In this document: in pieces, positions 33,904-56,423 of the stretch
Position numbering within the stretch: position 1 is the stretch's first letter
Layout: every line of letters begins with the position of its first letter
Translations under genes and position numbers: made by a program
The notes under the pieces: model-generated
Database searches by the model: none
What the model saw: the letters and a program-made list of their open reading frames with translations, nothing else
Told to the model about the DNA's origin: nothing
Origin: Soonwooa buanensis
GTDB taxonomy: Bacteria > Bacteroidota > Bacteroidia > Flavobacteriales > Weeksellaceae
NCBI RefSeq assembly: GCF_900167905.1
Contig: NZ_FUYZ01000005.1
Span: forward strand, 1 to 64,000
DNA length: 64,000 nucleotides
Reading direction: 5' to 3'

Positions 33904-34015
33904 AGGAGCTTTATCACGCTGTCCGCTGTATCTTTGGGCTTGTCGCTCGGACGGCTCCGCTCCGCTCCGCCGCCTCACTCCAACCCAAAGGATGCCGCTT
34001 CCATCGTGGCTAGGG
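33904..34015. repeat. GC-rich element, candidate dispersed repeat
   Basis: This stretch is far richer in GC than the DNA around it. It contains ATCTTTGGG (33930-33938) and CCCAAAGGAT (33983-33992) facing each other, GCTCCGCTCCGCTCCGCCGCC repeats between them (33954-33973), and GAGCTTTATCACGCTG at its start. There is no gene. I have seen similar wording in flavobacterial genomes but know no named family. Confidence 0.5.
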
Positions 34016-53203: not shown

Positions 53204-53218
53204 TATTTTTGAGCAATG
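53204..53218 (+). promoter_or_regulatory. -7 box TATTTTTG 4 nt before the dnaX ATG (leaderless mRNA predicted)
   Basis: TATTTTTG (53204-53211), AGCA, ATG (53216). No -33 TTG at standard spacing. Confidence 0.5.
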
Positions 53219-54298
53219 GAAAATTTCGTTGTTTCAGCTAGAAAATACCGTCCGCAGGAGTTTGATACAGTTGTTGGTCAATCTCACATTACAGATACTT
53301 TGGAGCATGCAATTGATGAAAATCAATTAGCTCAGGCATTGTTGTTTTGTGGACCTCGTGGTGTTGGTAAAACGACTTGTGCGAGAATTCTGGCAAGAAA
53401 AATTAACGAAAAATCTGGCGCTAGCGATGATGATGGATTTGCTTTAAATATCTATGAGCTCGATGCTGCGTCTAACAACTCGGTAGATGATATTCGAGAA
53501 TTAACGGATCAAGTGCGATTCGCACCACAAGTTGGGAAGTTCAAAGTCTATATTATTGATGAGGTTCACATGTTGTCAACGGCAGCTTTCAATGCTTTTC
53601 TTAAAACTTTGGAAGAACCGCCTGCACACGCAATTTTCATTTTAGCAACAACGGAAAAACACAAGATTATTCCGACGATTTTATCACGTTGTCAGATTTA
53701 CGATTTCAAAAGAATCACCATCGAAGACATCCAAGATCATCTTAGAAAAATAGCTGATAAAGAAGGTGTAACTTACGAAGACGACGCACTTTATATGGTT
53801 GCGCAGAAAGCGGATGGTGCTTTGCGTGACGCTTTGTCGATTTTTGATAGATTGTCAACTTTCTCTCAAAAGAATATTACTTTAGAAAAAGCGGCGGAAG
53901 TTCTTAATATCCTTGACTACGACCAATATCTTAATATTGTTGATTTAGCAAAAGAGAACAAAATTCCAGAAGTGTTAACCGCTTTTGATACCATTGTTAA
54001 AAAAGGATTCGATCCGCATGTTTTTATTGCTGGATTGGGAAGCCATTTCCGTGATTTGATGATGTCGCAAAATCCTCAAACTTTAGCATTAATCGAAGTT
54101 GGGGAGAAGACGAAACAAAAATTCTTTGACCAAAGTCAAAAATGGACGGCGCAACAGTTAATCGACGCCATCGAAATTTGCAACTTTGCGGATATTAATT
54201 ATAAAAATTCTAAAAATCCACGTTTGACTGTCGAGATTGCTTTGATGCAACTTTCGAGTCTTACAGCTGGCTTGGAAGCTAAAAAAAAAAGTTCTTAA
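53216..54298 (+). CDS. dnaX: DNA polymerase III subunit gamma (zero-frame dnaX product)
   Basis: The 360-residue zero-frame product is a clamp-loader ATPase: NFVVSARKYRPQEFDTVVGQ start, Walker A CGPRGVGKTTCARIL, DEVH-type motif VYIIDEVHMLS, sensor region KIIPTILSRC. The zinc-binding cysteine cluster that E. coli DnaX has after Walker A is absent here: NEKSGASDDDGFALNIYEL. The frame ends AKKKSS-stop just after an A10 run. A longer tau form needs a -1 shift into the frame that continues to 54909. The protein is expected to pair with delta and delta-prime subunits encoded elsewhere. Confidence 0.93.
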   Translation: MENFVVSARKYRPQEFDTVVGQSHITDTLEHAIDENQLAQALLFCGPRGVGKTTCARILARKINEKSGASDDDGFALNIYELDAASNNSVDDIRELTDQVRFAPQVGKFKVYIIDEVHMLSTAAFNAFLKTLEEPPAHAIFILATTEKHKIIPTILSRCQIYDFKRITIEDIQDHLRKIADKEGVTYEDDALYMVAQKADGALRDALSIFDRLSTFSQKNITLEKAAEVLNILDYDQYLNIVDLAKENKIPEVLTAFDTIVKKGFDPHVFIAGLGSHFRDLMMSQNPQTLALIEVGEKTKQKFFDQSQKWTAQQLIDAIEICNFADINYKNSKNPRLTVEIALMQLSSLTAGLEAKKKSS

Positions 54299-54329
54299 TA
54301 TTAGCGCCACTTCTTCAAGCTAATCTTAA
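54281..54329 (+). promoter_or_regulatory. Frameshift/slippage signal in dnaX: A10 run plus stem-loop
   Basis: Ten A (54281-54290) followed by G make a slippery site. Four to five bases later a stem forms: 54295-54305 pairs with 54319-54329 (11 bp with one mismatch, 13-nt loop). The zero-frame stop (54296-54298) lies in the stem. The downstream -1 frame stays open from here to 54909. Confidence 0.75.
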
Positions 54330-54909
54330 AACACCAACGACTTCGACGCCACAAGTTCCTCAAAATAAAGTACAAACTGAGGTTAAAAAATCTGCGCCTA
54401 CTTTTCCTGAAGAGCGTCCAAAAGTTGAAAAAGCATCAAAACCTTTGCAACAACAAGCGAAGCCTTCTGAGTTCAGCATTAATGCGTTTATGAACAAGAA
54501 AGAGGAGACGGAAGAGCTTTTTGCACCAGCTGAGGAAGATTTACCAAAAGAGCATTTTTCGCAGCCTGATGTCGAAAGAGAGTGGAAGGCTTTCCTTCTT
54601 AAATTATCGAAAATAGATTCGGTAGCTTATAATGCAATTAACAATTTTAGACTGACAAAAACCCACGAAGATCAAATTGAAGTGTTATTTTCATCTTCAA
54701 CAGCGAAAGCAGAATTCGATAAAGTTGCTGGAGAATTTGTAAATCATTTTAAACATAAAGTGAAAAATTATGGAATAAAGCTTCACTTTAAAGAAGATAA
54801 AACGATTGTTCAGGAAGTGATGACGAAGAAAAAATTATTCGAAAAATTCGCTGAGATTAATCCTGTTCTAAAGGATCTTAACGATTTGATGCGTTTTGAT
54901 TTGACTTAA
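54289..54909 (+). CDS. dnaX: Tau-specific part of dnaX read by a -1 frameshift at the A10 run
   Basis: In the -1 frame the sequence continues from the A10 run as ...KKKFLILAPLLQANLKTPTT, a Pro/Lys-rich linker, then EFSINAFMNKKEETEELFAP and a helical domain (VEREWKAFLLKLSKIDSVAYNAI, then FKHKVKNYGIKLHFKEDK). The first in-frame ATG inside it is at 54490, but nothing suggests a separate gene, and the linker belongs to tau. Joined, the two frames give about 564 residues. The tau tail of other bacteria binds the polymerase core and the replicative helicase. Confidence 0.8.
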   Translation, partial: KFLILAPLLQANLKTPTTSTPQVPQNKVQTEVKKSAPTFPEERPKVEKASKPLQQQAKPSEFSINAFMNKKEETEELFAPAEEDLPKEHFSQPDVEREWKAFLLKLSKIDSVAYNAINNFRLTKTHEDQIEVLFSSSTAKAEFDKVAGEFVNHFKHKVKNYGIKLHFKEDKTIVQEVMTKKKLFEKFAEINPVLKDLNDLMRFDLT

Positions 54910-54956: not shown

Positions 54957-54985
54957 TTTGTATTTGCTATAAAGTTTTACCTTTG
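54957..54985 (+). promoter_or_regulatory. Promoter of the aromatic leader and DAHP synthase gene
   Basis: TTTG (54957-54960), 17-bp spacer, TACCTTTG (54978-54985). Transcription would start near 54991, some 350 nt before the DAHP synthase ATG. Confidence 0.6.
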
Positions 54986-55063
54986 TCTTGTATTTCTGCC
55001 CAAGTGTGGTAGATGATTTAATCAAAAATAGCTAATAAAACCTTTGTAATAAAGGAATTATCA

Positions 55064-55195
55064 ATGGAATCAAACCATTTTCCATATTCAACAACTTTAG
55101 AATCTGCCTTTACTTTTGGTGGATTGTTTAGCTTTTTTGGTGCTTATTATTTTAGAAATTTTGGAAGTTCTTACCGATATTATTGGTACAGCTAA
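55064..55195 (+). CDS. Aromatic-rich leader peptide (43 residues) upstream of DAHP synthase
   Basis: The ATG at 55064 opens a 43-codon frame that ends at the TAA 55193-55195. It has 8 Phe, 7 Tyr and 1 Trp (16 of 43), and ends GSSYRYYWYS. The codons for YRYYWY lie in a hairpin (55172-55178 with 55182-55188). Twenty-odd bases after the stop comes a second hairpin (55217-55223 with 55229-55235). This is the layout of a leader peptide whose translation senses charged aromatic tRNAs. A 5-bp hairpin (55041-55045 with 55051-55055) sits just before the ATG. Confidence 0.65.
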   Translation: MESNHFPYSTTLESAFTFGGLFSFFGAYYFRNFGSSYRYYWYS

Positions 55196-55216
55196 CTAAA
55201 TTTCTTTCTCAAAAAA

Positions 55217-55235
55217 AAGTGCGTTTTTCGCATTT
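55217..55235 (+). terminator. Candidate attenuator hairpin before DAHP synthase
   Basis: A 7-bp stem with one G-T pair (55217-55223 with 55229-55235) and T5 loop, but only three T follow directly, so it is a weak terminator. A longer T7 tract comes at 55252-55258. Confidence 0.4.
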
Positions 55236-55343
55236 CTGTAATCATTTAAGATTTTTTTAAACGACATTTTTTTGGAAAAGAATTATAAATCCTCATTTAT
55301 AACAGATTAACACGTGTATTAACTCAGCAAATATTTAGATAAA

Positions 55344-56423
55344 ATGAACTTAAACGAACTAGAAAATAATTGGATAAAAGGCTTCGAAAAACCTGTCATT
55401 ATTGCAGGTCCTTGCTCTGCGGAAAGTGAAAGCCAGATGTTGGAAACAGCTAAAAGACTTAAAGAAAGTGATGCCGATGTTTCTGTATTCCGTGCTGGAA
55501 TTTGGAAACCTCGTACCAAGCCAAACGGCTTCGAAGGTGTTGGCGTTATCGGTCTTAATTGGCTTAAAAAAGTGAAAGAAGAATACGGTTTCAAAACGGC
55601 GACGGAAGTGGCAAATGCACACCATGTTTTTGCAGCTTTAGAAGCGGATGTCGATGTCCTTTGGATTGGCGCGCGTTCAACAGTTAATCCTTTCACGGTT
55701 CAAGAAATTGCGCAAGCACTTCGTGGTATTGATAAACCAGTTTTGGTGAAAAATCCAGTGAATCCAGATTTGGCTTTGTGGATTGGTGCCTTAGAAAGAC
55801 TTTTAGGTCAAGATGTTAAAAATTTAGGTGTTATCCACCGCGGTTTCTCAACTTACCAAAAGACAAAATACCGTAATATCCCGAACTGGCAAATTGCTTT
55901 AGACTTCAAACATCAATTCCCGAATATTCCTATGTTTATCGATCCGTCGCATATTTGCGGAAACAGAACTGGATTGGCAGGCGTTACACAGGAAGCTTTC
56001 AATGTTGGTTACGAAGGTGCGATTATTGAAAGTCACTGTAATCCTGATGAAGCGTGGAGTGATGCTTCGCAACAGATTACACCAGAAGTTTTGGCGGATA
56101 TGATTAACAGTATCCAGATTCGTAAATCTGATATTTCTGGTTACGAAGACGAAATGGGAAAACATAGAACTTTGATTAGTGATTTGGATTTCCAATTGAT
56201 CGAGTTGTTGTCGCAACGTATGAAGATTTCTGAGAAAATCGGAACTTTGAAAAAAGAAAATAACATTGCGATTTTCCAGCCAGAACGTTGGAGAATTATT
56301 GCAGATTATGCCGCTCAAAAAGCCAATGAATCTGGGATGAGTCATGAGTTTATCGAAAAAGTTTTCAAAGCGATACATGAAGAATCGATTGAAGTTCAGA
56401 ATAAAATTATGATTAATAAATAA
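55344..56423 (+). CDS. Bifunctional 3-deoxy-7-phosphoheptulonate synthase / chorismate mutase
   Basis: The 359-residue protein joins a type I-beta DAHP synthase (about 1-260, with VIIAGPCSAESESQ, KPRTKPNGFEGVGVIGL, GVIHRGFSTYQKTKYRN, FIDPSHICGNRTGLAGV) to an AroQ-type chorismate mutase (about 275-355, with RTLISDLDFQLIELLSQRMKIS, PERWRIIADYA). A C-terminal mutase is the Porphyromonas-type order, where prephenate inhibits the synthase. It condenses PEP and erythrose-4-phosphate, the first shikimate step, and makes prephenate. The structured leader with an aromatic peptide suggests attenuation on top of feedback. Confidence 0.95.
   Translation: MNLNELENNWIKGFEKPVIIAGPCSAESESQMLETAKRLKESDADVSVFRAGIWKPRTKPNGFEGVGVIGLNWLKKVKEEYGFKTATEVANAHHVFAALEADVDVLWIGARSTVNPFTVQEIAQALRGIDKPVLVKNPVNPDLALWIGALERLLGQDVKNLGVIHRGFSTYQKTKYRNIPNWQIALDFKHQFPNIPMFIDPSHICGNRTGLAGVTQEAFNVGYEGAIIESHCNPDEAWSDASQQITPEVLADMINSIQIRKSDISGYEDEMGKHRTLISDLDFQLIELLSQRMKISEKIGTLKKENNIAIFQPERWRIIADYAAQKANESGMSHEFIEKVFKAIHEESIEVQNKIMINK

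Follow-up and report, generated by a model that had tools for sequence, protein, structure and literature searches.

A conserved aromatic leader peptide before the DAHP synthase gene of Soonwooa buanensis, probably part of an attenuator without a classical terminator

The DAHP synthase gene of Soonwooa buanensis is preceded by a short open reading frame (ORF) which, judged by its conservation in related genomes, is a genuine aromatic leader peptide, and the leader region probably acts as a ribosome-mediated attenuator sensing charged Phe-, Tyr- and Trp-tRNA and controlling the single DAHP synthase. The locus was analysed in a window of 64,000 nucleotides (contig NZ_FUYZ01000005.1, positions 1 to 64,000), on the forward strand of which the promoter, the leader elements and the gene are all located. 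The regulated gene (55344-56423) encodes a family I DAHP synthase fused to a type II chorismate mutase (Pfam PF00793, E 3e-38, and PF01817, E 6e-22) and has dnaX and rsgA as neighbours. A search of the genome found a single DAHP synthase and no class II enzyme; one further match to the DAHP synthase protein, with 30% identity, is presumably the related KDO8P synthase. Since the target is the single DAHP synthase, i.e. the entry enzyme, the presence of codons for all three aromatic residues fits, one leader reading the codons of all three end products being what is expected for the control of a single entry enzyme.

Adjoining the 3′ end of dnaX, the window presents a TTTG element (54957-54960) followed after 17 nt by TACCTTTG (54978-54985). 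This −33/−7 promoter (54957-54985) matches the TTTG/TANNTTTG consensus of Bacteroidetes (PMC6847099) and recurs in the aligned relatives as TTTG-16/17-TATATTTG, in agreement with the promoter-like sequence that the first-pass annotation had placed upstream of the frame. The neighbouring dnaX gene (53216-54909) itself occupies two frames that meet at ten consecutive A, GCTAAAAAAAAAAGTTCTTAA, near 54282-54291: the 0 frame stops after ..EAKKKSS, while another frame runs KKKFLILAPL.. and leads into the C-terminal part. Relatives with enough sequence (L003, L013, L023, L055 and L061) have dnaX arranged in this way too, which suggests programmed frameshifting or transcriptional slippage yielding gamma and tau.

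The leader ORF (55064-55195, ATG to TAA) comprises 43 codons plus the stop codon, translates to MESNHFPYSTTLESAFTFGGLFSFFGAYYFRNFGSSYRYYWYS and contains 8 Phe, 7 Tyr and 1 Trp, the composition first reported for it; no protein family matched it. In the window, the N-terminal half of the ORF is 34% aromatic in frame compared to 22% in base-shuffled sequences, and, the DNA being rich in T, a different reading frame attains 36%. Aromatic richness in the window sequence alone is not decisive, and it is conservation that settles the reality of the frame.

Relatives were collected by searching genome contigs with the protein, and in 79 of the loci found the sequence upstream could be read. A leader is present before the DAHP synthase gene in 73 of these, i.e. 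in 75 loci when the window and the congener L003 are included, and the orthologous frame is open in all 75, which belong to Epilithonimonas, Chryseobacterium and the genus of the window. In the six other loci (Elizabethkingia, Kaistella, Cloacibacterium and one other) no such ORF was found in the gap. The frames have 41-49 codons, begin with ATG, GTG or TTG and stop at a constant position; at the C terminus each carries an aromatic block resembling RNFR-YYRFYWY. Most share RNFRxYYRFYW[YF][CS], and the divergent Chryseobacterium keep an aromatic C-terminal block (SYYRYYWYS, GYYRHYWYS, CYRYYWCR). The N-terminal half varies in sequence and keeps its aromatic richness. Over the 75 loci, this half has an aromatic fraction of 0.35 in its own frame, compared to 0.10 and 0.26 in the other two frames and 0.21 in shuffled sequences. 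Between the closest pairs, substitutions fall mainly on third codon positions (0.52 in the N-terminal part and 0.76 in the C-terminal part).

With 41 non-redundant loci as its basis, a covariance model found one leader copy per genome in 170 genomes, all from the three genera of the family, and no leader beyond those genera among 396 genomes of the order. Three weak additional genomes in this search proved, on inspection of their loci, to be chance matches. Paralogous copies before other genes were not found, the weak matches L139-L143 being in or beside unrelated genes; matches of the H2 motif (see below) in other families, together with L090 and L093, were likewise chance hits in unrelated DNA.

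Within the leader ORF, a hairpin designated H1 (AATCTGCC / GGTGGATT, 55101-55125) is found in nearly all loci and shows many compensated arms, for instance CCGCTAA/TTAGCGG, CTGTC/GACAG and CTATC/GATAG. It was the best-scoring helix in the covariation scan, and the two highest-ranked co-changing pairs of a tree-based scan, which was unbiased and covered ~35,000 column pairs, lie in it. Further downstream, the 7-bp hairpin previously noted at the YRYYWY codons is present as H2 (TACCGAT/ATTGGTA, 55172-55188) over the control codons Tyr-Arg-Tyr-Tyr-Trp, with 96% of cells paired. Segment A (AGAAATTTTGG, 55154-55164), which consists of the codons for Arg, Asn and Phe that precede the control codons, pairs with 55196-55205, i.e. 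with the bases immediately 3′ of the stop codon, which form the first part of segment B. Unaided, RNAalifold predicted A:B, H2 and a downstream hairpin, H5. At the A:B pair 55162:55198, 19 of the 41 loci have C-G and 16 have U-A; in the gene tree, the two positions change jointly along 5 branches, and on 4 of these the change is compensatory (p = 5.5e-4, rank fourth of the ~35,000 column pairs in the tree-based scan). On the side that varies, the change concerns the third position of a Phe codon and leaves the peptide as it is. Swapping the partners gives weaker A:B duplexes than the native ones (permutation 0.0002), and A:B pairs are broken in a few loci (L014, L049 and L022). The open frame, the kept Tyr, Phe and Trp codons and the compensating hairpin changes, which the first-pass annotation had named as the support to look for in related genomes, are all found in these comparisons.

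Segment B (CTAAATTTCTTTCTCAAAAAAA, 55196-55217), directly after the stop codon, can pair either with A or with segment C (TTTTTTTGGAAAAGAATT, 55267-55284). The B:C helix has 13-15 bp and encloses two hairpins: H3 (AAAGTGCG/CGCATTT, 55216-55235), whose pairing is kept while its sequence changes in relatives, and H4 (CATTTAA / TTAAACG, 55243-55263), a weak A+U hairpin before the T run with −0.7 kcal/mol in the window. A:B and B:C are mutually exclusive. In the alignment, 96% of the B:C/H5 cells are paired and mostly invariant. Because B and C are almost invariant, the covariation of B:C is weak (native vs swapped partners, 0.08); such constancy would follow from B having to match two partners, A and C, and C may also owe its conservation to something else. 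In a divergent clade, a C.A mismatch of B:C is repaired (CTTTTC:GAAAAG). H5 (TTATAAAT/ATTTATAA, 55283-55302), predicted by RNAalifold, has a closing pair that is UA, GU, GC or AU; it is an A+U-only hairpin (TTATAAA..TTTATAA) located 40-75 nt 5′ of the start codon and conserved in nearly all loci. Other roles for this region were considered and rejected: a conserved second short ORF over C, because some loci do not retain the TTG-AAA-AGA-ATT frame; a partner for C further downstream (region 4), no such helix appearing in the covariation scans; and a second promoter at C/H5, no TANNTTTG standing at the right spacing in the alignments of relatives.

The switching pairs A:B and B:C, as well as H1, are additions to what had been noted before. 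In constrained folding, B:C formed in 41 of 41 folds with a stalled ribosome, modelled by covering A and the control codons, vs 0 of 41 with the ribosome at the stop codon, the footprint of which was assumed to end exactly at the limit of the A-pairing part of B. The leader thus combines a short ORF rich in codons for the end products, upstream of a biosynthetic gene, with control codons set to choose between exclusive pairings, of which B:C shows weak covariation of its own. According to the proposed mechanism, the transcript would begin at the TTTG/TACCTTTG promoter and the short ORF would be translated. Under a shortage of aromatic amino acids, the ribosome would stall in the Tyr-Arg-Tyr-Tyr-Trp-Tyr block, covering A and opening H2, so that B would be free to pair with C (ON). 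When they are plentiful, the ribosome would reach the stop codon with its footprint over the first part of B and, after its release, B would re-pair with A and leave C free (OFF). We infer that the stalled state is ON because the gene is biosynthetic. The OFF state would most likely end transcription early, through Rho or else at a terminator that is weak and non-canonical. Of this scheme, comparison of the relatives establishes H1, A:B, the conservation of the frame with its aromatic codons and the complementarity that B and C have kept.

One alternative for the output step is that it concerns translation or RNA stability, with C/H5 exposing or hiding a cleavage or ribosome-loading site of the DAHP synthase mRNA. 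The conservation of C and H5, the position of H5 upstream of the start codon and the lack of a terminator among the elements found would agree with this. However, the predicted accessibility of the start region is 0.63 in the stalled state vs 0.62 in the stop state, i.e. shows no difference, which led us to reject sequestration of the start codon, and no covarying helix links C or H5 to the start region. We consider an output of this kind unlikely, though it is the best placed of the alternatives.

Somewhat less probable still is a classical intrinsic attenuator, in which H4 (or H3) and the T run at 55267-55273 would be a weak but sufficient terminator antagonised by B:C. A hairpin followed by T6-T7 does occur in most loci, and H3 reaches ~−9.6 kcal/mol in many Chryseobacterium, followed by TTCCTTT. 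Nevertheless, the best hairpin before T7 has −0.7 kcal/mol in the window and a median of 0 over the 41 loci, whereas two controls from this genome, the his and trp leaders, have hairpins of −14.6 and −11.3 kcal/mol adjoining their T runs. Divergent relatives retain GAAAAGAATT, A:B and H5 but have only TTTC or TTTT in place of the T run, the window and Epilithonimonas are without TTCCTTT behind H3, and B:C can form only once the T run has been transcribed. A G+C hairpin followed by a U tract was not found as OFF structure across the 41 loci, and an intrinsic terminator before the T run was rejected as a conserved feature because its hairpin is weak and the T run decays. The hairpin that the first-pass annotation had placed at 55217-55235, 21 nt past the stop codon, is present as H3; its part as a terminator is not supported, the hairpin being variable, and the poor T tract that had been named as its weak point is borne out, since no conserved T tract lies behind it. 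In the same way, the reading of leader and hairpins as an attenuator is supported as regards the aromatic peptide and the alternative structures coupling ribosome position to expression, and is not supported as regards the classical Rho-independent terminator.

Considering that no canonical terminator is conserved, the output step appears to be non-canonical. Our leading guess is Rho-linked or other non-canonical termination, with mRNA stability ranked next. As to Rho-dependent leader-peptide attenuation of the tna/cor type, a rho gene is present in the genome; the leader region is A+U rich and C-poor, which is atypical for a Rho site. Taken as a whole, the reading that we put forward tentatively, giving it slightly less than an even chance, is an attenuator without a terminator, in which the stalled ribosome would bring about the long B:C helix and, without this helix, the transcript would be open to termination or destruction by Rho or some other factor, the leader serving as an all-aromatic (Phe, Tyr and Trp) sensor for the shikimate entry enzyme in the Chryseobacterium/Epilithonimonas clade only.

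The strong conservation of the C-terminal amino acids (RNFR-YYRFYWY) would also be expected of an arrest peptide of the TnaC type, on which free aromatic amino acids would stall the ribosome at the C-terminal peptide, B:C then being the OFF structure. But RNFR is encoded by segment A and YRFYW by H2, so that the conservation is explained at the RNA level; the N-terminal part shows no sequence conservation beyond its aromatic richness, and the divergent GICYRYYWCR alters the peptide while retaining Y-R-x-Y-W and the pairings. Such a peptide is improbable. That the ORF encodes a functional small protein, its place before DAHP synthase being incidental, would account for the conserved frame and C terminus and is nonetheless most improbable, as it always lies 5′ of the same gene in three genera, varies in its N-terminal half, has synonymous sites held by RNA pairing and lacks a protein family match.

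The attenuator reading, to which we return, would provide a well-supported aromatic leader for DAHP synthase in Bacteroidetes, a phylum with promoters and translation initiation unlike those of the models in which attenuation was elucidated. The missing terminator raises a testable question, i.e. how translation of the leader governs the downstream gene, and the covariance model can be used to annotate the element in 170 genomes.

The window's own genome also contains, outside the window, two classical-looking attenuators. One (L149), upstream of hisG (contig C29, ~342 kb), has the peptide MYNNQLHHYYHHTCTQAS and the terminator TCCCGTTTGAGTAAATCGAACGGGA with a T run; the other (L150), upstream of trpE (contig C11, ~292 kb), has the peptide MNLSLNKNWWWSSKSWSRS and a canonical terminator. 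No leader was seen before pheA in this genome, and ilvD is absent from it. The clear his and trp attenuators indicate that the attenuation principle operates in the lineage. Like them, the DAHP synthase leader places a leader peptide before a biosynthetic gene; unlike them, it is without a strong terminator and T run.

Searches against Rfam families (riboswitches, T-box, RF01692 and others) gave no match to the leader at gathering score, the best sub-threshold hit having E ~0.8 or worse. Elsewhere in the window, a Flavo-1 RNA (RF01705), a widespread flavobacterial motif whose function is not known, lies at 33908-34015 on the reverse strand (58.6 bits), and a sub-threshold copy occurs in L150. 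For amino acid operons of Flavobacterium psychrophilum, control by leader-peptide attenuation has been proposed, with structured 5′ elements before pheA and hisG (PMC9723704), and the Bacteroid-trp motif RF01692, a cis-regulatory trp motif of Bacteroidetes, is in Rfam (PMC2864571); unlike the present leader, these elements precede other genes. The earlier remark that no example had been described in the group is therefore too broad as regards attenuation, and agrees with the literature searched as regards the DAHP synthase leader itself, of which no published description in these bacteria was found.

With the pheL and trpL attenuators of Escherichia coli, the leader shares control codons within the leader ORF and exclusive pairings. 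In E. coli, ribosome position chooses between mutually exclusive RNA pairings, a canonical 3:4 terminator is formed and one amino acid is sensed, whereas the DAHP synthase leader is without a terminator and encodes all three aromatic residues. Control codons in the leader ORF are described for both pheL-pheA and trpL-trpEDCBA (PMC11802643). The closest known case, likened here by its published description, is found in Corynebacterium glutamicum, where the leader aroR precedes the aroF operon for DAHP synthase (Neshat et al. 2014, as given in PMC11802643); this leader contains Phe-Tyr-Phe codons, and a ribosome stalled on it raises expression, Phe limitation acting and Tyr availability not (PMC11802643). 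The present leader differs from aroR in phylum and peptide, in its clustered Phe, Tyr and Trp codons and in having no conserved terminator, and resembles it in placing an aromatic-codon leader peptide upstream of a DAHP synthase gene.
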